Shown: piece by piece, positions 1 to 54,482 of the stretch | Layout: the number at the start of each line of letters is the position of its first letter | Numbering within the stretch: position 1 is the first letter of the stretch | Assembly: GCA_037349105.1 (NCBI GenBank) | Contig: JAYJMM010000097.1 | Coordinates: forward strand, 2,452,001 to 2,516,000 | Reading direction: 5' to 3' | Source: Limnomonas spitsbergensis | Lineage: Eukaryota > Chlorophyta > Chlorophyceae > Chlamydomonadales | DNA length: 64,000 nucleotides | The notes under the pieces: generated by a model | What the model saw: the letters and a program-made list of their open reading frames with translations, nothing else | Database searches by the model: none | What the model was told of the DNA's origin: nothing | Program-made: the position numbers and the translations under genes

Positions 1-365
1 GTGAGGTGTGCAGTAAAGGACCATGTATCAGGAGGGGGTGAGGTGTGCAGTAAAGGACCATGTATCAGGAGGGGGTGAGGTGTGCAGTAAAGGACCATGT
101 ATCAGGAGGGGGTGAGGTGTGCAGTAAAGGACCATGTATCAGGAGGGGGTGAGGTGTGCAGTAAAGGACCATGTATCAGGAGGGGGTGAGGTGTGCAGTA
201 AAGGACCATGTATCAGGAGGGGGTGAGGTGTGCAGTAAAGGACCATGTATCAGGAGGGGGTGAGGTGTGCAGTAAAGGACCATGTATCAGGAGGGGGTGA
301 GGTGTGCAGTAAAGGACCATGTATCAGGAGGGGGTGAGGTGTGCAGTAAAGGACCATGTATCAGG
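1..365. repeat. 37-bp minisatellite, about 10 copies
   Basis: Near-perfect tandem repeat with a 37-bp period, running from the window edge to about 365. Each unit contains GGGGGTGAGG, which resembles a 5' splice site, so the array may be anchored on the donor of an ABC-F exon just left of the window (inference). It lies inside the intron upstream of the first visible ABC-F exon. Confidence 0.95.
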
Positions 366-725
366 GCTGCTAGGGGTGGGATTGAAATCTAGTTCCGTTT
401 ATGGAGGTGTGAGGTGATGAGTCATACAGAGGGGCTGCGTGCCTTGGGTAAGGGGCCTAATTACCTGGCATGCCCTCTACAATCCTCTCATTACCTCTGA
501 CAGCCCCTCTCTATTTCGTAAACCCTCTTCAACCCTCTTATCCTCTGTAATCCCCCCTCTCTTTCCTTCACACCTCTTGATCCCACTTATTTGTTCTGTT
601 ACCTTTCTGTTACCTCCCTGTTGCCTCCCTGTTCTGTTACTCTTCTGTCACATATCTGTTACCTTTCCGTTACCTTTTTGTTACCTAATTGTTACCTTCC
701 TGTTGCCTCCCTGTTGCCTCCCTGT
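366..725. other. intron 3' part with pyrimidine-rich CTGTTACCTTC-like repeats
   Basis: No exon is recognisable in 366-600. From about 590 the sequence is a T/C-rich, short-period degenerate repeat of CTGTTACCTTC, which would act as an extended polypyrimidine tract for the acceptor at 919-920. Open frames here are repeat artefacts. Confidence 0.6.
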
Positions 726-945
726 TACCTTTGTGTCATCTTTGTGTCACCTTCCTGTTACCTTCTTGTCACCTCCCTGTTGCCTGTCAGGTACTTCATG
801 GAGAATATCTGTTACCTTCCTGTTACCTTCTTGTCACCTCCCTGTTGCCTGTCGGGTACTTCATGGAGAATATCTGTAACCTTCCTGTTACCTTCTTGTC
901 ACCTCCCTGTTGCCTGTCAGGTACTTCATGGAGAATATCTGTGAT
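726..945 (+). repeat. 65-bp triplication of the acceptor and head of ABC-F exon 1
   Basis: The polypyrimidine tract, acceptor and first 21 bases of the exon (GTACTTCATGGAGAATATCT) occur at 791, 856 and 921, exactly 65 bp apart. Only the 921 copy continues into the conserved ABC-F sequence. The 791 copy keeps an AG before the echo; the 856 copy has GG instead. Confidence 0.9.
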
Positions 946-3900
946 CGCATTCTTGAGCTGGACAACGGTCGATGCTTCATGCATGACTTCGGGGGAGCAG
1001 GAGCCTACCAGCTGTTTAAGCAGGTCAGTGTGGCAGCAGTGGAGCACGGGGCAGGAGAGCAAGGCGAGGGAGTGCACGCATCTTTCAAGCACTCGCGTGC
1101 GGAGTATGTACTTGGGGAAATATTATTGGGACTGAAATGGCCTGATGTTGAAAGCACCTATTAGCTGGTGACCAGGGGCTGGTGACCATTCCGCCAAAAC
1201 TGGATGAACATCGCCTTGATGGTAGATATGTGCAGGCTGCTCCAAGACATTATCCTGATTTGACATTTCTTTGACCTGGGTTGGACCCGGTTTGACTGCT
1301 GCTTTCAGGCCCGTAAGGTCTGGCAAATGAGCCCGGATAGACCCGGCTGAACAAACCCTTGACCCTGAACCCTGAATCCTGGCTTGACAAGGTTCGACCA
1401 TGGTTTGATGATCGCGTCCTCGCGAGTTCCGTCACATGATCCAGGCCAGGACCGCCGCTCACTCAACCCTTAGTTCAACCCTGGTTTCACACCTGCTGCT
1501 TTCAGGCCCGTAAGTTCCGGCACAAGATCCAGGCCAGGACCGCCGCTGACACAACCCTTAGCTCAACCCTGGTTTCACTCAGGGCCCATAGGGGCCCTTG
1601 ACGAAACCCTTAACCCTGGTCCCCAACCCCTGACTTGCTGCTTTCAGGCCCGTGAGTTCCGGCGCAGGAGTCAGGCCAACGCCGCCGCTGACGCTCGCAC
1701 TCTCTTCAAGAGAGAGGCGGAGTGGTGAGTGCTGCATGCACGGCGGTTATGAAAGAGTGCTGCATGCACGGCGGTTATGAAAGAGTGCTGCATGCACGGC
1801 GGTTATGAAAGAGTGCTGCACGCACGGCGGTTATGAAAGAGTGCTGCATGCACGGCGGTTATGAAAGAGTGCTGCATGCACGGCGGTTATGAAAGAGTGC
1901 TGCATGCACGGCGGTTATGAAAGAGTGCTGCACGCACGGCGGTTATGAAAGAGTGCTGCATGCACGGCGGTTATGAAAGAGTGCTGCATGCACGGCGGTT
2001 ATGAAAGAGTGCTGCACGCACGGCGGTTATGAAAGAGTGCTGCATGCACGGCGGTTATGAAAGAGTGACGCATGCACGGCGGTTATGAAAGAGTGATGCG
2101 TGCACAGCGGTTCTGAAAGGGCTCAGGCCATCGGTCACCTTTCTGATCATTGATCTTCCTGTGGGAGGAAAATAATCAAACTGATGTGGCACTCCGAATT
2201 CAACATTGGCTTGATGCATTTGAAAGTCGAAAATGCAGCACACTGCCTTTGCTCCACATTTCCAGCCGAATAAAATGATTGCATCCATGCATATTTCGAC
2301 CACGATACCAACCTGCAGATTTTTAGGATTTTGAAGCAGCCGAAGGCGAGGCAGGCCAAGTGACTACATTTGAAATCTAAATTGCACGATTTGAATTTTG
2401 AATCCGAATCTTAGGATTGTGAAGCAGCCCAAGGCGAGACAGGCCAAGAGCCAGGCCCGAGTGAATGCATTCGTGGAGCTGACGGAAAAGACCAAGGACA
2501 TGCCGAAAGAGGATCTCAAGGCAGATTTTGGCACCAAGGGCATGATCCGACAAGGTGGGAGCGAGCTGCTCGGGGGAAATAGATTGGGTCTGAAACATAA
2601 GAAGATAAACCTGGGCTTCCCTCCTTTGCGTGCCTGGTCACGCTTGGGCATGCCCCCTGCGCACACCTGGGCATCCTTATGGTACACCCATCACCTAGCC
2701 CTCCAACGTCGAAATACAGCTTCTGTTAAATCTAAATATTGGATCCAGATCTGAAGGTTGAATGAAGAGGTTGGATCAAGAGATGGCTTTTTTTCCTTTT
2801 GTGTTTGCCTCGTATTAGGTTCAACGCTGCTAAGATGTCAAGATGTAGGCTTGCTGAATTGTGGCTGAATTATAGCTGGGTCATACGGAAGTTGAATTGT
2901 AGCCTTGTAGCCAGACTGTTGCTTATAACTTAAAGTACTTGAAGTCAACACACCTGGATTCATTCATGTTTTCGTCTTGCATCCCATTCTGGCAACAATG
3001 GATTCAAGATACGTCTTGCACGCACATTCCGTATGTCAAGGTACCTCTTTCTCACATCTGATTGTGTCTCTTAAGCTGTGATTTTCTTATTCTCTCACCA
3101 CACTTTGTCCCATTCGTGTCCCATACAGGCAACAAGGTAGTCAAGATGCATGGTGTGAGCTACACGCCTCCAGGCTTCACGGCACCGCTTATTAAGGACT
3201 TTGCTTACGAGTTTGCACCAGGTGTGTGGGAGAGCTCGCGTTGCTGTCTCAGCCTGCCTGCCGTATCTTGCATCTTCTGTCAGAGGAACCGGATGGAGCA
3301 AACAGCCGTAGCAGAGAATTAAGCAGAGAGAAGGCAGGAAAGTCAAGTATGGGTTTTGCCCCAAGCCCTTCATGCCTAGTCGAGTACTGACGTCTGTCTG
3401 TAGCCCTTAAAACAGGGCTCTGATTGTTTAAGAATTTCAGGGTTCAGGAATTATAGGGCTTTAGAATGAAAGGGCTGCTTTTAAGAGGCTCTGTCATGAA
3501 AAATGTAGTGGATAGAGGAGGCTGGCCTCAGCCTGCCACCGCCAGCACACATCAGCCTCGCATCGGAGTCAGCCCCCCCCCGACCGACCGCCCCCATCAC
3601 AACATCAGGCGAGCACCTGAAAATGGCGCCCTTGTGTTGAAACTCATAAGTCAGCCAGCCCCTTCTCCCTGCTCCTCTGCTGAAAAACAAACAGGCGAGC
3701 GCTTGGGCATCGTGGGGCGCAACGGCGCCGGTAAGACGTCGCTGCTCAACCTCATCTCAGGCACAGTGGCGCCCACCAGCGGCGTGCGAGAGGTTGGGGA
3801 CACGACAGTGTTTGGGTACTTCACGCAGGTGGGTTCCCACATCAACCGGATTTCAAATTTGAATTCGAAATTTGAAAAACTGTTTTCGGGGCGGTTGCGC

Positions 3901-6900
3901 CCACCCGCTGTGTGAGGGAGGCTGGGAACACCGCGTTGCGGGGATACTTCTCACAGATCTCTCCTTGATTCAACTTTCAAATTTGAAATCGGAAGTTAAT
4001 AAATCGTAATGAATCGTAATGAATCTTACGTTCCCTTGCCACGACGCATCTGAGGTAGCAGCTACCGGAGATACAAATTCGAATCTGATGATGGGCCGGG
4101 GTTTGGAAAAAGGATCCTAATAGCAGTGAAGCGCTGGGCAGCTGGGTGTTGAGAACTGTGATGTGGCTGGGCCGTGCATGCAGGGCGCCGTTGACCCCTC
4201 TTCGCTTCTCCAAGGTCTTCCCTTTGCTTCTTGCTAAGTTAAAAAAACTGAATCATCTCCTAATTTCTGTCATAGGCCCTATCCGCCCCGAGGCGGCCCA
4301 TGGACGGTAATGCAAAAATGCCCCCCCCCCCCCCCCCCCACACACACACACGCTTAGATTATCCCCCACGACTGCTCCCTTATCTTTCTGAACTCTAATA
4401 TTCTTTGTCAGGCGCAGCCTTCTTTCTCTCCCGCGCCCCCCCCCCTCCTTCCAGATTTAGTTTGTACGACCTTCAGGCCATGCCACACGATGTCTCCCAA
4501 CCCAACGATTCAGTTTGCCTGGGTTAAGTCCTTGGAACCGCTTCAACAAGTCGTATGTGCTGCCTGTACTGCCCGCAGTACCCACCCGAGGTACGGCAGG
4601 ACATGCGCGTCATCAGCTACATCAAAGAGATTGCAGATGAGCGGAAGGCGATGGATGCGGGGATTGAGTCGGCAGACACCCCAGAGGTGCTGCTGGAGAA
4701 GGTGCGAGAGGACAGGGATGTGGCACACGGGCATATTGTATGTACCGGTATGAAGAAGGTGCATGAACGCAGGACGGGAGGAGGGGGTCACACATTGGTT
4801 CACACACTGCCACACAAGTACCGGTATACACACTCCTTCTCTGTGTAAGTGCATGGGGCGGGGCTCACACATCAGCACATGTAGAGACGTCTCTTGTCAC
4901 TTTTGTCACACAAAACGGGCGTACTTGGGGATTCAGGTACCAAGATACCGGCGTTCTCTTTTCTTTTCTACCGTATAATCTCCTAGACTTGGCTTATAAT
5001 TAATTAATCATGAGGTGCGTGGACGTGGCTACAAGCTAGTAGTAATTCAAAAATCGCCGGTGCGCGGAGTGTCAGGCAGGTGCCCAAACAGCTATTTTGG
5101 CGGTGCGCGATACGAATTAAAAACAGCTAATATGAAAAAAACGCCGCGCTCGCGCGCGACTGTTTGATTTGACATCCGTCGAGTTATCCTTACGCCAGTC
5201 CCCGTAGCGAAGCTAGATTCTGGAGGCAGAGACGGGTGCTGACGACTGCTGACGTTTCGGGGCCCCAACAGCCACACGTTTCCTGAGGCCGGGAACCAGC
5301 GGAGGAGGAGGATGACGACTATGCTAAGTATTTCAGAACGTGTACTATCCTTGCTAGCATCAAACGAGGGTTTTAACTGAGTTTACTGTACTGGCTGAAA
5401 GTGCTGCGTGGAAGGAAATTTAAATTATTTTCAGCGATGCGCGACATAAAATTAAATTTTGCTGCTGCCGTTTTTTAAATCCTTTTTGGCTGCGCGCCAG
5501 GAGATTTTTTAGGGGGGGGAGTTGTGCGGCCCCTGAGCGGTTGTACGGTATGTTAAAAATAAAAAAATCACAGTCAATGTGCATTTTGTCCACGGGGTTT
5601 GTTACTGATGCTGGTAGATTAATGTCTGGAGCCGGCGCCCATGGTGGTGTTCTGGTCAGCTGGCCCCTGCCCTGCCCTGTCCTCCCTCCCCGCCCTCTGG
5701 TCAGGTATTCCTTCCAGCCTTCCTGTTTGTCACAGCCAACACAACTGACCACCTCCCCTCCCGCCACCCTGCCCTGTCCTCCCTCCCTGCCCTCTGAGAC
5801 TGGTGACGTGTGGAAGGGGAGGTCCAAGATCATCGCTGTTCAGGATAAACTGAGCCCCTGCCCTGCCCTGTCCTCCCTCCCTGCCCTCTGAGACTGGTGA
5901 CGTGTGGAAGGGGAGGTCCAAGGGCATTGCTGTTCAGGATAAACTGAGCCCCTGCCCTGCCCTGTCCTCCCTCCCTGCCCTCTGAGACTGGTGACTTGTG
6001 GAAGGGGAGGTCCAAGATCATCGCTGTTCAGGATGTCTTTGGATATTCCCCTCCCTGCATCATGATCTATACGCTGGTATCGGACGCAAGTTCTACCACC
6101 TCCTCCGCTGACTGAAACTTACACTTCGAATTCGAGGCCTTGCGTATTCCCCACCCCACTGAAGTCCATTCATTTCGGGAAGTGGATGACATGATGCTGA
6201 AGCATGGAAAAATACACAAATCCCCCCCGCCCCCTTCCGGTGCTGTAGCTGGGCTTCCCGCGTGCGCGGCAATATCAGTACGTGTCCTCGCTGAGTGGTG
6301 GGGAGAGGCGTCGCCTGCATCTTGCCTCTGTGCTAGTGGAGCGGCCGAACCTGCTGATCCTGGATGAGCCCACCAACGACCTGGATCTGCAGGTGGGATC
6401 TAGATCTAAGTCCATGGGCAATTTAGAGACGGGAGGGTTGCGACCGATATCTGCTGTTGTCATGGACACAGATTTGTATCCAGAGATGGGTGAGGAGGGG
6501 TGTCACCTACATCTGCACAGGTGATTGATAACAAACTATATTCAGAAACGGGACAGGAGGGGTACCACTTGGATCTGCAGATATGTTTAAACCTGACTTA
6601 GATCCAGAGATGGGGCAGGAGGGGCGCGATTTGGATCTGCCGGTTTGATTGATGCAGATCTAGATCCAGATATAGAATGCCTGATTCCTTCCTGGCTTTC
6701 ACTGGATCTCTCTAGATCTGTTCAGATCCTGGTATCCCCCTCCCCCCTTGCCCCTGCGCCCTACAGACTGTTGAGGTGGTGGAGGAGGTCGTCCGGGGCT
6801 ACAAGGGAGTACTACTGGTGGTCTCTCACGGTGAGTGCGGCGCAGAGGAGGGGGGGCGGCTGAGTTAGCCTTTCCTTTCCCTAGGTTTTGTTGTTGTCCT

Positions 6901-9900
6901 GCCGAGGTTCAAGGGGTGGAGGAGCTGGTCGTTGTTTGCAAGAGAGTGCCCACTGGTGGTCTCACATGGTGAGTGCGCCGCAGAGGGGGGGGGGGCGGCT
7001 GAATCAGCCTTTCCTCTCCCTAGGTTTTGTTGTTGTCCTGCCGAGATTCAAGGGGTGGAGGAGGTGGTTCGTGTTTGCAAGGGAGTGCCCACTGGTGGTC
7101 TCACATGGTGAGTGCGCCGCAGAGGGGAGGGGGGGGCGGCTGAATCAGCCTTTCCTCTCCCTAGGTTTTGTTGGTGTCCCGCCGAGGTGGAGGTGGTGGA
7201 GGAGGTGGTCCGTGGCTACAAGGGAGTGCCTACTGGTGGTCTCTCATGGTGAGTAGGGCGGCTGAATCAGCTCTTACTTCAATGTATTTGTTCTCTGGGC
7301 AGTTCTGCTGGCCTTTTCGTTGTCGTTGCTTTGTTGAGTTGGCTGAGAGAGTCATCCAGGGCCACTGAAGAGTGCTGCTGTCGGTCTCACGCGATGAGAA
7401 TGGCGCAGAGGGGGTAGAAAGAATGGGGCGGTTGAATCAGCTTTTGTTGAGTTGGCTGAGAGATTCGTCCAGGGCCACTGAAGAGTGCTGCTGGTGGTCT
7501 CACACGACGAGAGTGGCGCAGAGGGGTAGAGGGGATGGGGCGGTTGAATCAGCTTTGTTGAGTTGGCTGAGAGATTCGTCCAGGGCCACTGAAGAGTGCT
7601 GCTGGTGGTCTCACACGACGAGAGTGGCGCAGAGGGGTAGAGGGGATGGGGCGGTTGAATCAGCTTTGTTGAGTTGGCTGAGAGATTCGTCCAGGGCCAC
7701 TGAAGAGTGCTGCTGGTGGTCTCACACGACGAGAGTGGCGCAGAGGGGTAGAGGGGATGGGGCGGTTGAATCAGCTTTGTTGAGTTGGCTGAGAGATTCG
7801 TCCAGGGCCACTGAAGAGTGCTGCTGGTGGTCTCACACGACGAGAGTGGCGCAGAGGGGTAGAGGGGATGGGGCGGTTGAATCAGCTTTGTTGAGTTGGC
7901 TGAGAGATTCGTCCAGGGCCACTGAAGAGTGCTGCTGGTGGTCTCACACGACGAGAGTGGCGCAGAGGGGTAGAGGGGATGGGGCGGTTGAATCAGCTTT
8001 GTTGAGTTGGCTGAGAGATTCGTCCAGGGCCACTGAAGAGTGCTGCTGGCGGTCTCACACGAAGAGAGTGGCGCAGAGGGGGTAGAGGGGATGGGGCGGT
8101 TGAATCAGCTTTGTTGAGTTGGCTGAGAGATTCGTCCAGGGCCACTGAAGAGTGCTGCTGGTGGTCTCACACGACGAGAGTGGCGCAGAGGGGTAGAGGG
8201 GATGGGGCGGTTGAATCAGCTTTGTTGAGTTGGCTGAGAGATTCGTCCAGGGCCACTGAAGAGTGCTGCTGGTGGTCTCACACGACGAGAGTGGCGCAGA
8301 GGGGTAGAGGGGATGGGGCGGTTGAATCAGCTTTGTTGAGTTGGCTGAGAGATTCGTCCAGGGCCACTGAGGAGTGCTGCTGGCGGTCTCACACGACGAG
8401 AGTGGCGCAGAGGGGTAGAGGGGATGGGGCGGTTGAATCAGCTTTGTTGAGTTGGCTGAGAGATTCGTCCAGGGCCACTGAAGAGTGCTGCTGGTGGTCT
8501 CACACGACGAGAGTGGCGCAGAGGGGTAGAGGGGATGGGGCGGTTGAATCAGCTTTGTTGAGTTGGCTGAGAGATTCGTCCAGGGCCACTGAGGAGTGCT
8601 GCTGGCGGTCTCACACGACGAGAGTGGCGCAGAGGGTAGAAGGGATGGGGCGGTTGAATCAGCTTTGTTGAGTTGGCTGAGAGATTCGTCCAGGGCCACT
8701 GAAGAGTGCTGCTGGTGGTCTCACACGACGAGAGTGGCGCAGAGGGTAGAAGGGATGGGGCGGTTGAATCAGCTTTGTTGAGTTGGCTGAGAGATTCGTC
8801 CAGGGCCACTGAAGAGTGCTGCTGGTGGTCTCACACGACGAGAGTGGCGCAGAGGGGTAGAGGGGATGGGGCGGTTAAATCAGCTTTGTTGAGTTGGCTG
8901 AGAGATTCGTCCAGGGCCACTGAGGAGTGCTGCTGGTGGTCTCACACGAAGAGAGTGGCGCAGAGGGGTAGAGGGGATGGGGCGGTTGAATCAGCTTTGT
9001 TGAGTTGGCTGAGAGATTCGTCCAGGGCCACTGAAGAGTGCTGCTGGCGGTCTCACACGACGAGAGTGGCGCAGAGGGTAGAAGGGATGGGGCGGTTGAA
9101 TCAGCTTTGTTGAGTTGGCTGAGAGATTCGTCCAGGGCCACTGAAGAGTGCTGCTGGCGGTCTCACACGATGAGGGCGGGTAGAGGGGGGTAGAGAAGTG
9201 TGTGGGGGGGGGAGGGTTGAATCAGCTCTTGCTTCAAGTTATTTTGTCTTCAAGGCAGTATAGCTGGTGGACGCATACTGCGTGGGGCGCACAGGGGATG
9301 GGGCGGTTGAATCGGCCCTTCCGGGTGCTGCAAGGCAGTCTGGCGGGTGGTCTTTCAGTCTGTGGGGTGGGGTTAATTGGGATTTTTCTTCACTGTTTTG
9401 CCGTCATTCTCAGGTAGTACCGATTCCTTATTCTGTTATCCCAGTCAGTACTGCCTGCCACCTTTTAGAAGATTGCGTGAACGGCTACTGGTTGGACATG
9501 TCAGTTGTTCTGTAATGGCAGGTCAGATGCGCTGGTGTTCGGTTTTAGTTTAAGCTGTTACGGTGGTCGAAGTGGGAGGCAGGCCATGTAGGGTTCAGAG
9601 GTCAGCCATGTCCTCAGCTGAGGTTACAAGGTGTGCGGATCAAGGGTCAAGGACATTGGGCCTTAAAGTTTGTGTCATTTGGTGTACGTCTTCTGTATTC
9701 TGGTGCATCTATACCTTGTTTCCAGGGGAAAGCAGTTTGTTAACCGGATTCAGGGGAAAGCAGTTTGTTAACCCAAATCATTGGTGCAGCGTTTGTTTGG
9801 CGCTGTAGCTAAGTCTTTTGCCTCCCTCTTACCCATTTCATCTGCCCTACGATCCGCCCTCCTAATCATCCTCTCCACCATCCTCCTTGCCTACCTATCT

Positions 9901-12897: not shown

Positions 12898-13020
12898 CTA
12901 GGGGTCTTGGATCTGGGAGGAGATTTCGTGGAGCGCCCGAGTGACCGCTGGATGGAGCTTGCAGAGCTGGCAGAAGATCTTTTGTTAGGGGTCTTGGATC
13001 TGGGAGGAGATGTCTCATGG
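12898..13020 (+). repeat. tandem echo of the ABC-F terminal exon past the stop codon
   Basis: The segment GTGACCGCTGGATGGAGCTT at 12854 recurs at 12941, 87 bp (29 codons) downstream, with GGGGTCTTGGATCTGGGAGG copied as well. In the second copy the stop codon position reads TTG instead of TAG, and the same frame stays open to TAA at 13432-13434. Confidence 0.85.
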
Positions 13021-14390: not shown

Positions 14391-14394
14391 ACTC

Positions 14395-14402: not shown

Positions 14403-14453
14403 TCCTGAATCGATCGACAATCAATAACTCGTATCCGGGGCCCAACTCATAGG

Positions 14454-26289: not shown

Positions 26290-26329
26290 GCGCTGCTGTC
26301 ACGTGGAAGAGATCCAAGCATGGTATCCA

Positions 26330-42600: not shown

Positions 42601-45600
42601 CAGGGGCGTAGAAAGAGTGGGGAGAAGGGGCCCAGGCTGGCTAGGCAGGAACATGTTTCCACCCTGCCCCAATGCATGCAAAGGCCTTAGAACAGTGAGC
42701 GTTGAGGGGGAAGGGGTGGGGGGTAGCCCCTTGGCATGCTCAGGCTTGTAAGAGGGAGTGTTAAGAAAGGAGAAGGGAGGGGGGTTTAAGGCCGATGCAT
42801 GGGGTTTGTACATGCCCCAAGCTTCGCACTTGCCCCCAAGCTCCGTTCATGCCGCAGGCAGGCGTTGATAGCCCCCACATCATGTGCCCCGCATGCCTCA
42901 ATCTACCTCCATGAAATCTGAGGCCCTGTCCTGTACCTCTCCCCTGCCTGTTGCATGAATAGGTGGAGTATCCCTTTCATGACTCCAAGTCAGAACGCAT
43001 AGAGGTGCGTGTGCATGTGCCGATATCACGCAATTTGCTAATCATTAGGCTGAATCACCTGGCTGCTTGTCTTCGCTGCCTGCCTGCCTTGCTGACTGGC
43101 TGGCTGGTTCCTCTATTATGTCTGGCCTGGCTTAACCGCGTGATTGGCTCACAAAATCTTTCCCTAAAAGCTGCATTTGTCTTTCCTAAATCCTCAACCT
43201 GTCTTTACCCCAAACCTGGACTCTTATTTACCTAAACCCTGGACCCATGTTTTCCCTTAAACATGTCTTAGCGACTGGCTGGCAATTGTCCCTCTAAAAC
43301 TTGTATTCCCCTAAAGTCGTATCTCGCGTGGCCCTGCATCCTGAACTGTCTTTATCTGAACCCTGAACCCTGAACCCTGAACCCACCTGAACTGTATTTT
43401 TCTTAACCCTGAACCCTGAACCCAATAGCGCAACCTGCTGCGGAGGGCTCGTGTGATGGAGGACGGCGAGTGGAGGCTGGTTCGACCCAACCAAAAGTGG
43501 GAGGAGCGGGAGGTGAGCAAGCCCAAGTTTTCTTAACCCTAAGCTCTTGACGCTAAATCAAAAGTGGGAGGAGCGGGAGGTGAGCACGCCCAAGCTTTCT
43601 AAAAAAGAAAGAAAGAAATAAAGAAAACTACGCCCCACAGGGGCCTGAGGGTCAAGGAAACAGAGCGGCATGGGCCTAGGCCGCGTCCGTGCCGTTACGA
43701 TTGGAAGTTTCTGAATCCCTGAGCTGTTGATGCTAAACCTACATTGGGAGGAGCGGGAGGTGAGCAGGTCAGCATGCCCAAGCTTTCTCGACCCTAAGCC
43801 CTTCACCTGAATCAACAGTGGGAGGAGTGGGGGGAAATGACCATGCCTGTCCGTTTGCCTCCAGGCATGCTGGCCAATCAGGTCCCGCATGGTGGCCAAT
43901 CAGGTCCCGCATGGTGGCCAATCAGGTCCCGCATGCTGGCCAATCAGGTCCCGCATGGTGGCCAATCAGATCCCGCATGCTGGCCAATCAGGTCCCGCAT
44001 GCTGGCCAATCAGGTCCCGCATGCTGGCCAATCAGGTCCCGCATGGTGGCCAATCAGGTCCCGCATGGTGGCCAATCAGGTCCCGCATGCTGGCCAATCA
44101 GGTCCCGCATGCTGGCCAATCAGGTCCCGCATGCTGGCCAATCAGGTCCCGCATGGTGGCCAATCAGGTCCTGCATGGTGGCCAATCAGGTCCCGCATGC
44201 TGGCCAAGCAGGTCCCGCATGCTGGCCAATCAGGTCCCGCATGCTGGCCAATCAGGTCCCGCATGCTGGCCAATCAGGTCCCGCATGGTGGCCAATCAGG
44301 TCCCGCATGCTGGCCAATCAGGTCCCGCATGCTGGCCAATCAGGTCCCGCATGCTGGCCAATCAGGTCCCGCATGGTGGCGAGTCGGGAGTCCGGGACTC
44401 GCTTGGTGGCCAGGTGGAACTTGCATGGCAGTGCTTATTTTTCCGGCCATGAGTCCACCTTCCACAGGCCACCACTCCCTCACTGGACCAAACCTGGAAC
44501 GGCCTATGACTGATGGCCAAGGCAGCATGGCTGGCCACAAATGGGGCCTCCGGCCAGAAACTTGAGTTTTGCTGACGGGCAGCTGAGTCACGAAAAAAGA
44601 AACGCTGACACATGTCCAGCCGCACTGAGGGCCTGTGATGTGGTCTTGGCCGGCAAGGTCGCTGACAAGCACGGCCCTGTTCTTCCACTCAGCAGAGGGA
44701 ACGGACACAAAAAATAATGTGTCTGTCCGGAGGGAACATCAAAAACAATGATTTCCCCCCCAGGGCAAAGCATGAAACAAATGATTCATATCCGAGATTC
44801 ATATCCGAGGGAGGGCACAGCAAACCTGTGGTATTGTGAGCTTTGCAGCCCGGGCAGCTGGGATAGGGCATTGTGGCCATGCAAATTGCAATGACCAGCT
44901 GCTCCATACCAAGCAATCATTCATTAGGGGGGGGCGGAGACAGGCCATATGCTGAATGGGATGGGCCGAGAGGTGCAGAACAGCCGGATCCATGCATGAG
45001 GGCTGAGTGGCCAATGCATGCAGATTGCCTGTTCCCCTCTGCTTTCCCTTCATAGTAATGAAACCTTGCCCCACATCCATCTGGTCTCGCTCCCCCCCTC
45101 TCCTCCCACATGCATGAGGGCTGAGTGGCCAATGCATGCAGATTGCCTGTTCCCCTCTGCTCTCCCTTCATAGTAATGAAACCTTGCCCCACATCCATCT
45201 GGTCTCGCTCCCCCCCTCTCCTCCCACATGCATGAGGGCTGAGTGGCCAATGCATGCAGATTGCCTGTTCCCCTCTGCTCTCCCTTCATAGTAATGAAAC
45301 CTTGCCCCACATCCATCTGGTCTCGCTCCCCCCCTCTCCTCCCACATGCATGAGGGCTGAGTGGCTGATGCATGCAGATTGCCTGTTCCCCTCTGCTCTC
45401 CCTTCATAGTAATGAAACCTTGCCCCACATCCATCTGGTCTCGCTCCCCCCCTCTCCTCCCACATGCATGAGGGCTGAGTGGCCGATGCATGCAGATTGC
45501 CTGTTCCCCTCTGCTCTCCCTTCATAGTAATGAAACCTTGCCCCACATCCATCTGGTCTCGCTCCCCCCCTCTCCTCCCACATGCATGAGGGCTGAGTGG

Positions 45601-48600
45601 CCAATGCATGCAGATTGCCTGTTCCCCTCTGCTTTCCCTTCATAGTAATGAAACCTTGCCCCACATCCATCTGGTCTCGCTCCCCCCCTCTCCTCCCACA
45701 TGCATGAGGGCTGAGTGGCTGATGCATGCAGATTGCCTGTTCCCCTCTGCTCTCCCTTCATAGTAATGAAACCTTGCCCCACATCCATCTGGTCTCGCTC
45801 CCCCCCTCTCCTCCCACATGCATGAGGGCTGAGTGGCCGATGCATGCAGATTGCCTGTTCCCCTCTGCTCTCCCTTCATAGTAATGAAACCTTGCCCCAC
45901 ATCCATCTGGTCTCGCTCCCCCCCTCTCCTCCCACATGCATGAGGGCTGAGTGGCCGATGCATGCAGATTGCCTGTTCCCCTCTGCTCTCCCTTCATAGT
46001 AATGAAACCTTGCCCCACATCCATCTGGTCTCGCTCCCCCCCTCTCCTCCCACATGCATGAGGGCTGAGTGGCCGATGCATGCAGATTGCCTGTTCCCCT
46101 CTGCTTTCCCTTCATAGTAATGAAACCTTGCCCCACATCCATCTGGTCTCGCTCCCCCCCTCTCCTCCCACATGCATGAGGGCTGAGTGGCCAATGCATG
46201 CAGATTGCCTGTTCCCCTCTGCTTTCCCTTCATAGTAATGAAACCTTGCCCCACATCCATCTGGTCTTGCTCCCCCCCTCTCCTCCCACATGCATGAGGG
46301 CTGAGTGGCCAATGCATGCAGATTGCCTGTTCCCCTCTGCTCTCCCTTCATAGTAATGAAACCTTGCCCCACATCCATCTGGTCTCGCTCCCCCCCTCTC
46401 CTCCCACATGCATGAGGGCTGAGTGGCCGATGCATGCAGATTGCCTGTTCCCCTCTGCTCTCCCTTCATAGTAATGCAACCTTGCCCCACATCCATCTGG
46501 TCTCGCTCCCCCCCTCTCCTCCCACATGCATGAGGGCTGAGTGGCCAATGCATGCAGATTGCCTGTTCCCCTCTGCTTTCCCTTCATAGTAATGAAACCT
46601 TGCCCCACATCCATCTGGTCTCGCTCCCCCCCTCTCCTCCCACATGCATGAGGGCTGAGTGGCTGATGCATGCAGATTGCCTGTTCCCCTCTGCTTTCCC
46701 TTCATAGTAATGAAACCTTGCCCCACATCCATCTGGTCTCGCTCCCCCCCTCTCCTCCCACATGCATGAGGGCTGAGTGGCTGATGCATGCAGATTGCCT
46801 GTTCCCCTCTGCTCTCCCTTCATAGTAATGAAACCTTGCCCCACATCCATCTGGTCTCGCTCCCCCCCTCTCCTCCCACATGCATGAGGGCTGAGTGGCC
46901 GATGCATGCAGATTGCCTGTTCCCCTCTGCTCTCCCTTCATAGTAATGAAACCTTGCCCCACATCCATCTGGTCTTGCTCCCCCCCTCTCCTCCCACATG
47001 CAGATTGCCTATTCCCCTCTGCTTTCTGGTCCTGCGTACCCCCCCCTCTCCTCCCACATGCTCTGGTCCTGCGTACCCCCCCCTCTCCTTCCACATCCCC
47101 TGCCCCTGTCTTACTCCCCCTCTCCTCGCACATGTCTTGCCCCCGCCTTAATCACCCTCTCACCCCCACATGGTCTTAATCTGTCTCACCCCCCCTCTCC
47201 TACCGCGTGCCCTGCCTCTCCCTGTCCCCCCCACACATGTCCTGCCTCTGCCTTTACCCCCCTCCCTGCCCTCCCTGTCCTCCCACATGTTATGCGTCTG
47301 CCTCTTTCTCTTCCCCCCCACATGTCATGTGTCTGCCTCTCCCTCTCCCCTTCCCACATGGCCTGCCTCTCTTCCTCTCATGCCTCTCCCCTTCGCACAT
47401 GGCCTGCCTCTCTCCCACTCATGCCTCTCCCCCCCCCACATGGCCTGCCTCTCTCCCTTTCCTGCATGATGAGCAGGTGACATCGCCGCTGGAGCTGGAA
47501 CTTATTCACGAGGATGACCTAGGGGAGTTCCTCAATGACCTGGTGAGCTCAGGGGGGGAGGGGGAGGCCATGTCCTCAGGACAGGAGTCATGTGGGGCAG
47601 AGGATGTGGGGGGAGGGGGAGGGGGAGGGGGGGAGGGGGAGGCCATGTCCTCAGGACAGGATTCATGTGGGGCAGAGGATGTGGGGGGAGGGGGAGGGGG
47701 AGGGGGGGAGGGGGAGGCCATGTCCTCAGGACAGGATTCATGTGGGGCAGAGGATGTGGGGGGAGGGGGAGGGGGAGGGGGGGAGGGGGAGGCCATGTCC
47801 TCAGGACAGGATTCATGTGGGGCAGAGGATGTGGGGGGAGGGGGAGGCCCTTTCCACCGGACAGGATTGGAGAGGATGATCTTGGGAACAGGTTTCCTCA
47901 ACTTCCCTGGAGACCTCATTGGGGTGGGGTGGAGGCCCTTTCTCCACAGGACAGGATTTACAATATTGATCATGAGAGCAGTTTTCTTAATTGACGTGGT
48001 GAGCTCAGGGGGGTGGGGTGGAGGTCATTTCCACCGGACAGGATCCATGTGGGGTGGGGTGGAGGCCCTTCCCTCAGGACCGGGTGGGGTGGGGTGGAGG
48101 GTGGGGTTGACGCCCTTTCCTCAGGATGATTCACGAGGATGATCATGGAGCAGGTTTCCTGATTGGACATGGTGAGCTCAGGCCTGAGGGCTTAAGGGGG
48201 CAGGTATGGTGCTGTACTCTACCTACTGTCATAATATGGTTCTTAAGTAGAGTACTGGGACCGTAGATTTGCCTTGCCTTCCTTTATATTAAGCGTTGTT
48301 TGGGGCTGAGGGATCCTTGAATACAGTAATTCTCGATTGTCGACGCCAGTTTACAGAAATTAACAGTTTGTATCGATAATTTGTACCTAGGGCAGCAGTA
48401 AAAGAAAACATTTTTTCTTACCTGAAGGAAGGCAAATCAAATCTTTGGTGTATATGATTTGTAGTTTTGAAGTGCCTCCCCTCAGGCATGAGGACCGCGC
48501 TCTGGATCCTGAGGCACCTTGAGATCCTATTTTAGAAAATGGCCCCTATAAGACATGAAGACTGCGCCCTGGATCCTGTGGCACCATAAGCTCCTTTAGC

Positions 48601-51600
48601 GTCTGCCAGGGCACCCACGCTCTTGATCTTTGCTGCCCGCAGGCGCAACCAGAAGAGGACGGTCCCGCCGTGGCCACAGCCCTTCCGTCAAGAACGAAGG
48701 TGTGATAGGGTTGCGGCTGAACAGGGTGGGGGGTGGGGGGGGCCCGCGGAGCGGCCCGCGGATTCAGGCTGACAGAAGGTACTGTCTGATTATGTGGGCC
48801 ATGCATGCTGCCAAGCAGATTTTTTGTAAAGACGGCCTAGGACATGCAGGCTCACAGCGACACTGCCTAGCTCTGGGAAAAAGTATGGGATGAATGCATG
48901 GATAACGCAACAACCATGGGGTGTTGTGGGCTGTATTGGATACTGCTGCTGATGGAATTTTATGACACTACTGAATACACATACTTGCAGAAACTGATAC
49001 TGCTGATACGTATACTTGCGGGTACTGCAGCGAGCCATTTACTTGAATAAGATGACGTTTCTCGGCAGGCTCCTTAGTTGCTTGGTTTGGGCGTGCGATA
49101 TAACTGCCTGGGTCTGGCCCTGTGACCTGGGGTGTGGGCCTGCATGTAAAGATCTGGCACCCAGCGCTAAAATCTGTTAAACAGTGCCCCTCAGGTTCTC
49201 AGGTGCCTCACGCCCCTCAGGTTGTCAGAGGCCTCACTCCATGCACCTCTGCCACATGACCCCATGCACCTCTGCCTCATGACCCCATGCAACTCTGCCT
49301 CATGACCCCATGCACCTCTGCCTGGTGACCCCATGCACCTCTGCCTGGTGACCCCATGCACCTCTGCCTGGTGACCCCATGCACCTCTGCCTCATGACCC
49401 CATGCAACCCTGCCTCATGACCCCATGCACCCCTGCCTCATGACCCCATGCAACCCTGCCTCATGACTCCATGCACCTCTGCCTCATGACCCCGTGCACC
49501 TCTGCCTCATGACCCCATGCACCTCTGCCTCATGACCCCAAGCACCCCTGCCTCATGACCTCGTGCACCTCTGCCTCATGACCCCATGCAACCCTGCATC
49601 ATGCCCCGTGCACCCCTGCCTCATGACCCCATGCACCTCTGCCTCATGACCCCATGCACCCCTGCCTCATGCTCCCGTGCACCCCTGCCTCATGACCCCG
49701 TGCACCCCTGCCTCATGCTCCCGTGCACCCCTGCCTCATGACCCCATGCAACCCTGCCTCATGACCCCATGCAACCCTGCCTCATGACCCCATGCAACCC
49801 TGCCTTATGACCCCATGCACCCCTGCCTCATGACCTCATGTAACCCTGCCTCATGCTCCTGTGCACCCCTGCCTCATGACCCCATGCAACCCTGCCTCAT
49901 GACCCCATGCAACCTTGCCTCATGACCCCATGCAACCCTGCCTCATGACCCCATGCAACCCTGCCTCATGACCCCATGCAACCCTGCCTCATGACCCCAC
50001 GCAACCCTGCCTCATGACCCCATGCAACCCTGCCTCATGACCCCATGCAACCCTGCCTCATGACCCCATGCAACCCTGCCTCATGACCCCATGCAACCCT
50101 GCTTCATGCAATCATGCCCTTTACCTGTTCTCAGGGCGTTACTAAGCTCCAATCGGAGGTTGTGGAGATGCAAGTTATCAACAAGCCCCCAGGGCGACGC
50201 AGGAAGGGCCCGTCAGAGCTGCCCAATGAATTGTCGTTGCCTTTGCCGTTTGACTTTGGCGAGGAGCACACAGACCTTGAGGTGGGGACTCGGGCATGGG
50301 TTGCAATGAGACAGACTGCAGGGGGGGGCGGTGGGGATTCAGGAATGGATTGCAATGAGACAGACTGCAGAGGGGGGCGGTGGGATTCAGGAATGGCCGC
50401 ATAGATTGCAATGAGACAGACTGCAGGGGGGGGCGGTGGAGATTTAGGAATGGCTTGCAATGAGACAGCCTGCAGTCCTTCATCCCGTACCCCTCTCCCT
50501 AATCACCTTATCTCTTGGCTTCTCCCTAATCCTTCATCCCGTTGCCACCTTGATCCTTGATCCCTTGGCCTCCCCTCAGTCTTCGTCTATTGATGTCCCT
50601 AGTTCACATAATTATCTTCATGTATCCTTATTTTGTCCTTTGTGTTGCAGCCCGGCGAGTTCTGTCAGGTATACCGAGGTAGAAACGAGGAGGCCTGGTT
50701 TGGCAGAGTCCTCAAAAGAGTAAAGGGAGGCAAGGAGGGAGTATACACGGTGAGAGGCGGGTGCGGTAAAACCCTTAACCCTAAGGGAGGCAAGGAGGGA
50801 GTATACACGGTGAGAGGCAGGTGCGGTGACGTTGAGGATTGGGTAGGGTCAGAATCACATGAAGGCGCGTAGAGCAAGCAAGAAAAGGAAATGCCTTGGG
50901 GCTCTGATATGAGAGGCCTTTCGTTTTCTGCCGAAGCTCGGCATTTTGTGTCCATGACCCAGGATGGTACATATGAATGGCGCATCTGGGCTCGGTGTGC
51001 CTTATGCTAGACAGGAGTTGAGACGGTTCCCTCTCCATGCCTTGCTCTGCAAAGCCTTTGGTAGTGGCCACTGGTCACTCAAATGATGAGTAGTGGCCAC
51101 TGGTCACTCAAATGATTAGTAGTGGCCACTGGTCACTCAAATGATGAGCAGTGGCCACTGGTCACTCAAATGATGAGTAGTGGCCACTGGTCACTCGAAG
51201 GATGAGTAGTGGCCACTGGTCACTCGAAGGATGAGTAGTGGCCACTGGTCACTCAAATGATGAGTAGTGGCCACTGGTCACTCAAATGATGAGTAGTGGC
51301 CACTGGTCACTCAAATGATGAGTAGTGGCCACTGGTCACTCAAATGATGAGCAGTGGCCACTGGTCACTCAAATGATGAGTAGTGGCCACTGGTCACTCG
51401 AAGGATGAGTAGTGGCCACTGGTCACTCAAATGATGAGTACTGGCCACTGGTCACTCAAATGATGAGTTGTGGCCACTGGTCACTCTAATGATGAGTAGT
51501 GGCCACTGGTCACTCAAATGATGAGTAGTGGCCACTGGTCACTCAAATGATGAGTAGTGGCCACTACTGCTCAGCTTTCAAGAAATTGCAGAAAAAGCCT

Positions 51601-54482
51601 CAGACGCATCGCATATATTTCATGTTTTTGAACGGAAGGGGAAGCTGTAGGCGAGCAGCGGTGATGTTTGATGAGGGGGGTCTGTAATTCTACATTTTGC
51701 GCCCACTGCTGTACAGGTCGAGTTCCCCTTCAACGAGATGGTCAGGGCAAACATCGAGGTGTGCTCAGTGTTCATGCTTTGCCCTTTGTCTGAATGCCTG
51801 TCATCCATAGAAGGACTGCGGTGTGTCTGCAGGAGCATACTTTCGTCTAGGCCCAAAGCTCCGTTTCATCTGATTCCGCCATCAGTTGGCCTATGAGGGA
51901 AAGTAGGGTTGAGGGTTAGGGTGAAAGCCTTCAACCCTTGCTCTATCGGTTGGGTGGGTTGTGGATAAGGGTTTAGGGTTGAATACCGTAAAGCCTCCCT
52001 CTATCGGTTGGGTGGGCTGTAGATAAGGGTTTAAGGTTGAATACCGTAAAGCCTCCCTCTATCGGTTGGGTGGGCTGTAGATAAGGGTTTAGGGTTGAAT
52101 ACCGTAAAGCCTCCCTCTATCAGTTGGGTGGGCTGTGGATAAGGGTTTAGGGTTGAATACCGTAAAGCCTTCCTCTATCGGTTTGGTGGGTTGTGGATAA
52201 GGGTTTAGGGTTGACTACCGTAAAGCCTTCCTCTATCGGTTTGGTGGGTTGTGGATAAGGGTTTGGGGTTGAATACCGTAAAGCCTTCCTCCATGGGTGG
52301 CGTGGGCGAAGCTTGCAGTGTCCATCTTAAACTCTGTGTACACATTCGACTAGGGAGTCCTCTTGACTCGCCCACCTGCAAGCCTGCTAGGGGCGGTACC
52401 TATGGGCCCGCGGATTGTTTACAGTCTGAACTGTGAGTCCGTACCCTTGGCCCAATACCCTAAGGCCTTATCCTAAGCTCTTTACTTTCATTGATTACCC
52501 TAGGTCGTAGGTCCTCACCCTAAACCCTAAGCCCTTAGCCCAAGTCCTTACCCTAGGCCTGAACTCAAATTCCTTACCCTAAACCCTCAACCCCTGACTG
52601 CTTCAGGCGTCCATCATCCGACGGGCCCGCGTGCTGGAGCGTGGCACATGGAAGCTTCTGAGACCCTTCCAGAAGTGGAATGAGGGCGAGGTGAGAAGAC
52701 TGGCATTCAGGCAACCTTTGTCCCCCACAGCCTCTGCTGAGGCCCTTCCAGAAGAGGAATGAGGGCGAGGTGCCGAGGTGAGAAGACTGGCATTCAGGCA
52801 ACCTTTGCCCCCCACAGCCTCTTCTGAGCTGCATGCCTGCACTGCTCTGCTGCCTGATCTGACCCTGAACCCTAAACCTGATCTAGATCTTGCGTGTGAC
52901 ACTGTGTGTGACCCCAGGTGTTGTCGCCGCTGGAGCTGGACCCCATCAATGAGGATGACCTTCAAGCATACCTGCCTGACTACCCAGATGTAAGCTAGGG
53001 AGGGTTTTGTGGTTTAGTTTATATTTAAACCCTCAACCCTCAATAAGGCAAGCGTACCTGCCTGACTAAACAGATGTAAGCTCGGGAGGGTTTTGTGGTT
53101 TAATATATGTTTTAAACCCTCAAGTAAGGCAAGCATACCTGTCTGACTAAACCGATGTAAGATGGGGAAGGGATTATGGCCAGGGTTATGTTTACTCACC
53201 CGAAACACTGACAGGTATACATGCATACCTGTCTGACTTCTCCATCGTAAGCTGGGGAAGGGTTTATGGGGGTTTTAAGGTACGTTTTAAAACCTGAAAC
53301 CCTCAAAGAAGATAAGCATACCTGTCTGACTTCCCCATCGCAAGCTGGGGAAGGGTTGACGGAGAACATTATGGTTAAAATCTGTTCCTGAAGGTAGGCA
53401 AGCATACCTGCCTGACTGCCCAGATGTAAGCTGGGGAAGGGTTTATGGTGAACGTTGTTTTTAAAATTCTGATTCTCAAGGTAGGCAAGCAGGTATTTCT
53501 GCTTGACTTCCAGCTGGGCCAGGGTTCAGTTGCTGACAGTGCGTAGCCACCTCGTTCTTTGCTGGGAGTGATGTCAAGGAGTGCAGCCACCCAGCTGGAC
53601 AGGGGTCACGTACTCAAGCTCTTCCGTCCAGCTTTTGTGTCTGGAGATGACTGTTGATGCGCTTTGCCTTCTCTCATTGAAATCGTTTCTTGGGGGTGAA
53701 CGATGCGTACAAACAGTATAAAATTATCGTCGAGTGGTATTATTCCAGGAGGAAATCAAGTCGAGTGGTATTATTCCAGGAGGAAATCAAGTCGAGTGGT
53801 ATTATTCCAGGAGGAAATCAAGTCGAGTGGTATTATTCCAGGAGGAAATCAAGTCGAGTGGTATTATTCCAGGAGGAAATCAAGTCGAGTGGTATTATTC
53901 CAGGAGGAAATCAAGTCGAGTTTGGGTCGAAATTGTGCCCTGAGACGAGCATTACAGGAAATTATCTATTCATACCAAAGGCAAATCAAAACTACAATCC
54001 TCTGACCGTACAGTTATGTTTGGGGGAAGAGGGAGAAGAGGGAGAGACCATCTTGTGCTTCATGCTCTCTCATTGTCATTTCCTCTTCCTCATTCACTCC
54101 ACAGGATCAGCTGCTTGAAGGGAGGGCCCCCCGGTACTTAAAGCCGTCACCATTGATTGTTCCAGTCATTATTTTAGCATGCTTCAGCTAAAAATCAGCT
54201 ACATCACGGTCCACAGCTGTGAGGGGCTGGCACGGCACGCCCTGCTGCTTGGACCACCAGCCGTAGGCTGGTCAGGGTTTGGTCCCAATCTGCCCAGTGG
54301 TGGCCTCCCGGCGGCTGCTGGACGGTGGTCTTGCGTGCACTGAAATAATCACTGGTCTGGTCATTGTCCCCTCCCCCTCTTCTGATTCACAGGAGCAGCT
54401 GCCGGGGTTGAAGGGCTCCGCACAAAGCAACAAGCGTCGTCAGAATCAGGATGAGGATCCCGGATACCTCGCACCTGGAGTG
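39664..54482 (+). CDS. Tudor plus tandem agenet-like domain protein, 3' partial, 14 exons
   Basis: Exons: 39664-39699, 39856-39927, 40075-40206, 41212-41307, 42963-43004, 43429-43512, 47477-47542, 48643-48699, 50135-50281, 50651-50749, 51717-51758, 52607-52690, 52918-52989, 54393-54482. All lengths are multiples of three, so every visible intron is phase 0; 373 residues so far, no stop reached. Residues 13-70 are Tudor-like (VRVWWEPTDD, then FRVKYDNGEIEEV). Two agenet-like modules follow: PGEFCEV..AWFGRVVKSY..VEYPF..LLRRARVMEDGEWRLVRPNQKW..SPLELELIHEDDL, and PGEFCQV..AWFGRVLKRV..VEFPF..IIRRARVLERGTWKLLRPFQKW..SPLELDPINEDDL. Such domains usually bind chromatin or histone marks in plants (family knowledge); function here unknown. 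Gly-Arg-Arg-Arg-Lys near 219 and NKRRQ in the last exon are basic patches. The 57-nt exon 8 is the least certain. Confidence 0.85.
40207..41211. other. agenet gene intron 3
   Basis: Holds a piece of the dispersed GGTTTGGTC family near 40573 and a GCATGCATG-rich stretch at 41098-41170. No exon needed: EPLQ joins PGEF as in the second module. Confidence 0.45.
41350..42625. repeat. composite minisatellite of 30-bp and 23-bp units
   Basis: Two unit types alternate irregularly: GTGCAGTGCAGGGGCGTAGA plus AAGAGTGGAG (30 bp) and GTGCAAGCGTACAAAGAGTG plus GAG (23 bp). Blocks of several units are themselves repeated. All three lower-strand frames are open for 400-540 codons (LHLHSFYAP-type repeats); these are artefacts of an intronic array. 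Confidence 0.95.
43545..43835 (+). repeat. tail echoes of agenet exon 6
   Basis: Exon 6 ends AGTGGGAGGAGCGGGAG with donor GTGAGC at 43513. The same tail plus GTGAGC recurs at about 43561-43585 and 43743-43766, and a weaker copy lies at about 43819. CCCAAGCTTTCT or a similar block follows each. The first two echoes keep GT donors. Confidence 0.88.
43866..44388. repeat. 22-bp CCAAT-box array, about 24 copies
   Basis: Unit CATGCTGGCCAATCAGGTCC plus CG, with C/G alternation (GCTGG or GGTGG). GGCCAATCAG fits the NF-Y CCAAT consensus. As 22 is not a multiple of three, each frame cycles through all phases and all three + frames are open (MLANQVPHAGQSGPACWPIR type); not coding. Confidence 0.95.
44389..44985. 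other. agenet intron 6, between arrays
   Basis: Unique intron sequence with a short internal repeat (ATTCATATCCGAG twice near 44785-44810). No gene. Confidence 0.45.
44990..46999. repeat. 118-bp tandem repeat, about 17 copies
   Basis: Very regular 118-bp unit with CATGCATGAGGGCTGAGTGG, CATAGTAATGAAACCTTGCC and CTCGCTCCCCCCCTCTCCTC. Copies differ at a few fixed sites (GGCCGATG, GGCCAATG or GGCTGATG; TCTCCC or TTTCCC). The repeated lower-strand 107-codon frames are artefacts. Confidence 0.97.
47000..47476. repeat. pyrimidine-rich degenerate repeat before agenet exon 7
   Basis: Decayed units built from CCCCCCTCTCCTCCCACATG, the end of the 118-bp unit. They form a ~470-bp C/T-rich tract leading into the acceptor at 47475-47476. 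Confidence 0.75.
47543..47865. repeat. 75-bp G-rich tandem repeat, 4 copies
   Basis: GGCCATGTCCTCAGGACAGG recurs every 75 bp (CCATG at 47568, 47643, 47718, 47793), followed by GGGGCAGAGGATGTGG and a run of GGGGGA units. It begins at the GTGAGCTC donor of exon 7. Several G-runs could form G-quadruplexes on the transcribed RNA. Confidence 0.93.
47868..48185 (+). repeat. tail echoes of agenet exon 7
   Basis: Exon 7 ends GAGGATGACCTAGGGGAGTT, CCTCAATGACCTG, donor GTGAGCTC. Echoes: about 47871-47915 (GAGGATGATCTTGGGAACAG), 47965-48010 (ending TTGACGTG with GTGAGCTCAGG) and 48127-48182 (GATTCACGAGGATGATCATG, ending GGACATG with GTGAGCTCAGG). The last two keep the donor. Confidence 0.85.
48186..48642. 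other. agenet intron 7, 3' part
   Basis: Contains a two-copy repeat (CTGGATCCTGAGGCACC and CTGGATCCTGTGGCACC) at about 48502 and 48571. No exon before 48643. Confidence 0.45.
49235..50118. repeat. 23-bp minisatellite, about 38 copies
   Basis: Unit ACCCTGCCTCATGACCCCAT plus GCA, with variants CTCTGCC and TGGTGACC in the upstream third. It fills the 3' part of agenet intron 8 and ends about 15 bp before the acceptor region of exon 9. Confidence 0.95.
50290..50475. repeat. 50-60-bp repeat after agenet exon 9, 4 copies
   Basis: TTGCAATGAGACAGACTGCAG followed by GGGGGGCGGTGG recurs at about 50309, 50350, 50407 and 50455. The array begins directly after the exon 9 donor GTGGGG (50282). Each unit ends CTGCAG, a possible cryptic acceptor. 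Confidence 0.85.
50780..50830 (+). repeat. tail echo of agenet exon 10
   Basis: The last 27 bases of exon 10 and its donor (GGAGGCAAGGAGGGAGTATA, then CACGGTGAGAGGC) are repeated perfectly 58 bp downstream at about 50783-50818, including an intact GTGAGA donor. Confidence 0.92.
51068..51569. repeat. 29-bp minisatellite with AGTGGCCACT palindrome, about 17 copies
   Basis: Unit AGTAGTGGCCACTGGTCACT plus CAAATGATG. Each unit carries the perfect 10-bp palindrome AGTGGCCACT. Located in agenet intron 10. Confidence 0.95.
51941..52298. repeat. 58-bp tandem repeat with TTTAGGG motifs, about 6 copies
   Basis: Unit includes CTATCGGTTGGGTGGGCTGT, AGATAAGGGTTTAGGGTTGA and ATACCGTAAAGCC, spaced 58 bp. 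GGGTTTAGGG equals the plant-type telomere motif. Further CCCTAAACCCT motifs occur at 52500-52595, just before exon 12. Confidence 0.9.
52738..52800 (+). repeat. tail echo of agenet exon 12
   Basis: Exon 12 ends CCCTTCCAGAAGTGGAATGA, GGGCGAG, donor GTGAGAAGAC (52691). Copy at about 52742-52795: CCCTTCCAGAAGAGGAATGA, GGGCGAG, then GTGCCGAG and GTGAGAAGACTGGCATTCAG. The donor is preserved. Confidence 0.92.
53045..53495 (+). repeat. about six tail echoes of agenet exon 13
   Basis: Exon 13 ends CAAGCATACCTGCCTGACTA, CCCAGAT, donor GTAAGC (52990). Echoes with AAGCATACCTG.CTGACT recur at about 53049, 53130, 53222, 53316, 53398 and 53485. Most keep GATGTAAG, CATCGTAAG or GATGTAAGC, that is, functional-looking donors; the 53316 copy reads CATCGCAAG. 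Confidence 0.92.
53731..53922. repeat. 31-bp minisatellite, about 6 copies
   Basis: Unit CGAGTGGTATTATTCCAGGA plus GGAAATCAAGT, near-perfect. Intron 13 of the agenet gene. All three + frames are open across it; not coding. Confidence 0.95.
54099..54140 (+). repeat. head echo of agenet exon 14
   Basis: CCACAG then GATCAGCTGCTTGAAGGGAG, resembling the real acceptor and head TTCACAG then GAGCAGCTGCCGGGGTTGAA with GGG. The echo lies 288 bp upstream of exon 14 and keeps CAG. Confidence 0.65.
54165..54355 (+). repeat. dispersed ~190-bp repeat, copy B
   Basis: Partner of 31675-31862, same orientation and block order. It sits between the exon 14 head echo and the real exon 14, so it may have separated them. 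Confidence 0.75.

Follow-up and report, generated by a model that had tools for sequence, protein, structure and literature searches.

In the genes sampled here, introns of the green alga Limnomonas spitsbergensis frequently contain copies of the exon edges that they adjoin. These copies, here called echoes, repeat either the acceptor and exon start upstream of an exon (head echoes) or the exon end and donor downstream of it (tail echoes). In a set of 152 introns, 31 exon heads and 28 exon tails had a copy in the adjoining intron, while only 0.57 and 0.30 were expected from non-cognate edges, an excess of about 54-fold and 93-fold. The non-cognate control contains occasional self draws, and the expectation is therefore if anything too high. 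A preliminary description of this DNA had read such copies as duplications centred on splice junctions. We consider it probable that they result from a general process of local, often tandem, duplication that acts anywhere in introns, with the junction-spanning pieces being tolerated and staying visible the longest.

Exon-edge copies in the window

The window, i.e. the whole stretch of 64 kb analysed here, belongs to an assembly of 260 Mb in 124 contigs and is rich in tandem arrays (71 rows in the TRF output). Exons of its ABC-F gene, whose protein has its best match in Chlamydomonas eustigma (79% identity), were set by spliced alignment to P0001 of that species with a purpose-written aligner, and the exons of the GATA, methyltransferase and agenet genes were placed by hand from the sequence. 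Three of the 32 introns modelled in this way (GATA 4, methyltransferase 1 and agenet 1) lack GT..AG as set, so those models are approximate. At a score of at least 32, five heads and five tails were copied in these 32 introns, a set without the intron that precedes ABC-F exon 1 and without the one following the last agenet exon, compared to 0.03 and 0.00 expected. The echoes listed below and the duplication over the ABC-F stop codon lie on the plus strand.

Six head echoes had been proposed in the preliminary description, and each of them was clear when exon edges were scored against their own introns. The acceptor of ABC-F exon 1 (921-1023) is covered by a 65-bp array of three units (745-942, TRF) that includes 22 nt of the exon, identical at 22/22 positions. 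The acceptor and first bases of ABC-F exon 2 (1648-1724) recur in two decayed copies within 1425-1597 (TRF), one of them matching 25/30 at 1506-1535, and the start of ABC-F exon 3 (2415-2554) is copied once, at 2327-2356 (27/30). Upstream of ABC-F exon 10 (11249-11473), the region 10442-11248 holds three decayed copies of the exon start at a score of at least 26, the best being 10442-10469 (23/28). The start of GATA exon 6 (17359-17521) is copied at 17289-17314 (22/26). For methyltransferase exon 3 (35314-35454), arrays of 118/120 bp (34117-35336, TRF) carry as much as about 70 nt of the exon start, with a best match of 27/30; 11 copies were counted in 33584-35313.

Seven of the eight tail echoes proposed were likewise clear, while the one attributed to agenet exon 47477-47542 is doubtful: its weak, gapped copy (47543-48175, extent by eye) matches 32/43 with p 0.016. 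The end of ABC-F exon 5 (3695-3828) recurs in decayed form at 3897-3956, where 43/60 positions match when a 60-nt edge is used (p <= 0.004, the edge itself being part of the control set), the 30-nt edge giving a score of only 18. Downstream of ABC-F exon 8 (6767-6830), arrays of 139 bp and 111 bp (6778-9188, TRF) contain 20 copies of the exon end at a score of at least 26 within 6831-9400, with a best match of 27/29. The end and donor of methyltransferase exon 3 are repeated in nine copies (best match 26/27) by a 76-bp array of 9.5 units (35417-36139, TRF). In the agenet gene, single copies of exon ends were found at 43556-43579 for exon 43429-43512 (23/24), at 50783-50809 for exon 50651-50749 (27/27) and at 52740-52769 for exon 52607-52690 (28/30), and arrays of 81-86 bp (52963-53491, TRF) hold five copies of the end of exon 52918-52990, the best of them matching 27/28. 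An 87-bp tandem duplication of two units (12842-13011, TRF, 42/43) covers the ABC-F stop codon and its 3' flank, a place without splice junction.

It had also been stated that copies are oldest far from the exon and best near it, but we found no such distance gradient in the arrays measured, where copies are about equally diverged from the exon at every position. All nine copies in the methyltransferase tail array are alike (34-35 of 37-38 positions); among the tail copies of ABC-F exon 8, the third matches best and those after it are level; in the tail array of agenet exon 52918-52990 the best copy is the one farthest from the exon; and in the methyltransferase head array distant copies (53/66) match at least as well as the nearest one (48/62).

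The window contains a number of other repeats. Two adjoining arrays of related G-rich units of 27-58 bp fill its last 9.5 kb (54507-64000), with a GC skew of 0.63 rising to 0.79. A dispersed repeat of about 165 bp occurs in three diverged copies at 31672-31842, 40479-40638 and 54162-54327, the second and third being identical to the first in 125/166 and 110/161 aligned columns. The arrays at 1-365 (37 bp, 9.9 copies) and 53729-53921 (31 bp, 6.2 copies) show 100% matches between copies and are thus very young or homogenised. By eye, a set of four exons (PGEFC.., VE(Y/F)PF.., RARV.. and SPLEL..) is seemingly repeated in the agenet gene (39781-54500). No window match to Rfam was obtained at gathering scores.

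Frequency beyond the window

For a wider sample, dynein heavy-chain genes were located by a Pfam search (PF12774). The resulting set of 152 introns comes from 13 stretches, with 15 introns from the ABC-F gene and 137 from this one gene family (12 stretches, 11 dynein genes). Fifteen dynein stretches were aligned to reference proteins, three of which (C39, C122 and C119:319482) yielded no intron passing the filter, which drops introns whose flanking exons have fewer than 20 aligned residues or less than 55% identity, are gapped, or are non-contiguous in the reference. An echo was called for a 30-nt edge at a score of at least 32; thresholds and tolerances were the analyst's choice.

The echoes are not peculiar to the window, but are real and common in the genes sampled. 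At least one echo was present in 52 of the 152 introns, about a third, and in 11 of 13 stretches, the two others being short with three introns each; with the ABC-F gene left out, the remaining 137 introns still gave 27 heads and 27 tails. At score 32, exon edges matched other introns in just 0.38% (heads) and 0.20% (tails) of draws, reverse-complemented edges matched in 0/152 introns for heads as well as for tails, and in the intron bordering the opposite end of the exon the same edge was found in 1/134 and 0/134 cases. Stretches from the exon interior (60-90 nt deep) had a copy in the adjoining intron in 0/121 and 1/120 cases.

The share of introns with an echo rises with intron length. Echoes were found in 4/27 introns shorter than 300 nt, 8/51 of 300-500 nt, 23/45 of 500-800 nt and 17/29 longer than 800 nt, and the median length was 644.5 nt for introns with an echo vs 412.5 nt for those without (p 8.5e-7). 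Local duplicates altogether make up 33% of the intron bases examined.

The dynein gene on contig C86 (L038-L041) is matched by P0122, with 4048/4422 residues identical and four gaps in all, none of them in the exons flanking its echo junctions. P0122 has a jgi source and stems from a contig of 13,676 bases for 4,426 residues, which is therefore probably a transcript. A candidate echo at the coding end of the C86 gene scored just 23 and was not counted.

Structure of the echoes

The 59 echoes reach a median of 40 nt and at most 76 nt into the exon, and the spacing to the nearest copy ranges from 66 to 155 nt (10th to 90th percentile). Exon-part identity of the copies has a median of 0.93 and a range of 0.77-1.00. 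In 27 of 59 cases copy and source are separated by no more than 5 nt and are thus tandem, seven have spacers of 6-25 nt and 25 have longer ones. Among 28 spacers tested, eight resemble the sequence flanking the other copy (p<0.05) and therefore look like decayed tandem units; the other 20 are unrelated to it. Of the simple two-copy pairs, 18/24 have sequence between the copies and do not abut. The simple pure tandem pairs, a small sample, showed a breakpoint overlap of at least 4 nt in 6/6 cases, one of them of 28 nt, compared to simulated random breakpoints with an overlap of at least 3 nt in 13%. The overlaps seen in pure tandem pairs suggest slippage or microhomology-mediated repair, and the spaced pairs suggest break repair with filler.

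Beyond the junction, 27 of 59 copies continue into the intron flank and none (0/59) into the spliced neighbouring exon; for four of the 59, no alignment at the junction was obtained. As described previously, many copies keep the splice dinucleotide, AG in 21/28 and GT in 19/27 alignable copies. These rates (75% and 70%) fall between those of neighbouring exon dinucleotides (84% and 72%) and intron dinucleotides (67% and 59%), so that selection for decoy sites was rejected. The suggested built-in supply of decoys therefore shows no sign of being maintained, as AG and GT have been preserved to much the same degree as the sequence around them.

Only 3/26 clean tandem echoes reach more than 60 nt into the exon vs 8.9 expected under random placement, and none more than 80 nt vs 4.1 expected, while for spaced echoes, measured by patch length, 5/30 exceed 60 nt vs 4.8 expected. 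Long exon copies may thus be selected against, and their tolerance may be incomplete.

Position of duplications relative to splice junctions

Duplications are not confined to junctions. In a position profile covering 116 introns from three genes, with ABC-F contributing 17, the 30-mers with a copy within 400 nt made up 17% at head and 15.5% at tail junctions, and 10-26% at intron positions. On the exon side the values dropped to 6% and 2.6% at 30 nt and to 0 at 60 nt, with one of 94 heads at 90 nt. Within introns of at least 420 nt, junctions were compared to the interior of the same introns, giving 0.322 vs 0.251 for heads (90 introns) and 0.242 vs 0.223 for tails (91 introns). Both matched differences, +0.07 (95% CI -0.04 to 0.18) and +0.02 (-0.08 to 0.12), have intervals that span zero. 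The pooled interior rates (0.397 and 0.408) are higher than the per-intron means because arrays fill many positions.

A count of repeat families first seems to indicate otherwise, since 61 of 143 families lie at junctions vs 14 expected. We set this count aside as biased by the freezing of exons and by the use of the matched length as unit length. Families at junctions are detectable for longer because the exon copy does not drift. With only those families considered that are detectable from intron sequence alone (both corrections were devised by the analyst), 11 and 11 were found at the two intron ends vs 12.6 and 12.6 expected, and 15 and 12 vs 13.8 expected at a tolerance of 8 nt. Families with an identity of at least 0.90 numbered nine at the 3' end and seven at the 5' end vs 5.7 expected. 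The youngest (identity at least 0.95) numbered eight and four vs 3.4 expected, counts that are uncorrected for multiple looks, and a wider tolerance gave 11 at the 3' end vs 4.4 expected. We conclude that duplication has no general targeting to junctions and that the young excess at acceptors is unexplained. Junction echoes look enriched because exons preserve the source copy.

Origin of the echoes

Intron gain of the type described by Rogers starts from the duplication of an AGGT-containing segment inside an exon, by which a new intron is created, and introner elements are introns that are made up of a dispersed family of similar sequences. Human introns are also said to derive from tandem arrays (Zhuo et al. 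2007). The Rogers type does not apply to the echoes, as they adjoin existing junctions and copies of deep exon stretches are practically absent (see above).

The probable explanation given at the outset would work as follows. Short local DNA duplications would arise throughout the introns of this genome, about half of them cleanly tandem and some interrupted by filler of unrelated sequence. A duplication that straddles the border between intron and exon would leave a complete junction and an entire exon in place, and it would survive for this reason. Splicing would use the intact copy, so that the encoded protein stays as it was and the surplus exon edge becomes part of the intron, whereas duplications within exons would be purged by selection. 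From then on, selection would hold the exonic source constant while its copy in the intron drifts, and since the exon copy is frozen, junction-spanning duplications would be recognisable for longer than purely intronic ones. Repeated rounds at one place would build arrays. We infer that the outer copies are unspliced and that exon duplications are purged, and the same holds for the underlying enzymology, be it slippage, microhomology-mediated repair or fill-in at staggered breaks. The duplication over the ABC-F stop codon follows the same rule without a splice site.

As an alternative, duplication might be targeted to splice junctions, e.g. through R-loops or paused polymerase near acceptors, and thereby be the source of intron growth. 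The naive family count, the youngest families at acceptors and the positive head difference in matched introns would speak for such targeting. But the confidence interval of that difference includes zero, the equal-detectability counts over all ages do not exceed expectation, duplications are equally dense in the intron interior, and a non-splice boundary of coding sequence, the ABC-F stop codon, is echoed as well; we regard targeting as unlikely. The preliminary interpretation, which combined centring on junctions with intron growth, was thus partly supported: the centring is not borne out by the matched and equal-detectability tests, whereas echo-bearing introns are indeed longer. Repair from spliced RNA, also put forward there, or retro-insertion of exon pieces would account for exon sequence occurring in introns. 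This is highly improbable, since copies run on into the intron flank and never into the neighbouring exon, and since they adjoin their own junction and hardly ever occur in the intron on the other side. We assign just as little probability to an assembly artefact or to chance similarity. Repeat arrays are hard to assemble, and the analysis covered a single assembly, but most copies are diverged from their source, and cognate matches far exceed the non-cognate expectation.

As a source of the local duplications, simple slippage does not predict the limited share of clean tandem echoes, even with the eight decayed units added, or the unrelated sequence of most spacers tested. Repair of staggered double-strand breaks that leaves a patch and filler, by 3'-overhang fill-in and end joining, is a possible sub-mechanism that we hold only tentatively and that is compatible with local duplication as the overall process. 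It agrees with the many separated two-copy pairs and unrelated spacers, and the available part of one report describes that fill-in at 3' overhangs makes small tandem duplications (PMC8355091). On the other hand, all pure tandem pairs overlap at the breakpoint while fill-in needs no overlap, and eight of the spacers tested look like decayed tandem units. Telomere-like repeats were considered as a possible filler. Heptamers of the TTTAGGG/CCCTAAA type are abundant in the 152 introns (907 seen vs 132.8 expected; 9.8 per kb in introns vs 0.18 in exons) and occur in 29/52 echo introns vs 40/100 others. A few spacers look telomeric, and 5/26 contain such a heptamer vs 7-11% in four controls, but as they are not clearly richer we did not count this as a difference and dropped the idea.

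Relation to known structures

The preliminary description knew of no standard feature type for these copies. This was wrong, because the 'mirages' of amphioxus have already been described as tandem repeats with units of 10-160 bp that lie across the exon-intron boundary (PMC3087553, which lists Canestro et al. 2002 as reference 68). In mirages both the 5' and 3' boundaries are duplicated, many but not all copies retain AG/GT, normal splicing is undisturbed, and concerted evolution in the cluster as well as length polymorphism or somatic instability are reported (PMC3087553). The algal echoes are of the mirage kind. Their units join an intron end to an exon edge and fall in the same length range, arrays lie over junctions, close to half of the spacers are 5 nt or shorter, both boundaries are affected, and most alignable copies keep their dinucleotide. 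They differ from amphioxus mirages in their green-algal host, in their occurrence in 52/152 introns, and in that about half are not clean tandem; the comparison of echo density with intron interiors also goes beyond the mirage account. New here are thus the frequency, the host and the test against junction targeting.

Related cases are known from other organisms, as far as the available parts of the respective reports go. In a potato RdRp gene, one tandem duplication across an intron-exon boundary made a new intron (PMC4974935). As in the algal echoes, the duplicated piece consists of the intron 3' end and exon start, and the exonic bit of the upstream copy ends up in the intron; unlike in the potato case, the algal introns already existed and were lengthened, with the protein model unchanged. 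For human genes in segmental duplications, the accessible text describes internal tandem repeats at exon-intron boundaries and alternative transcripts (PMC2812944); boundary repeats alter introns there as well, but are those of recent paralogues. Tandem repeats in Chlamydomonas and Volvox are given as more frequent near intron ends (PMC3887541), a parallel in green algae, introns and position near junctions, although this report, in the part available, treats density and motifs rather than exon edges as a source. Intron gain through tandem duplication is likewise recorded for Drosophila in the available part of PMC2891723. Among the matches listed from one open-access literature collection, there was no account of the pattern in algae and none of the genome-wide frequency of such structures.

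Significance

We think it improbable that intron growth in this algal lineage is driven mainly by local duplication with its newest events preferring 3' splice sites, such that growth would be seeded by transcription or splicing itself. If this were true, the frozen exon side would make each echo a datable fossil of one growth event. Our controls warn that an apparent enrichment at junctions can come from exon preservation. What appears worth keeping is the frequency of the echoes, their link to intron length, introns with echoes exceeding the others in length by about half, and the clock that exon edges provide: with one copy frozen and one drifting, rates of duplication and of intron growth could become measurable in a single genome.
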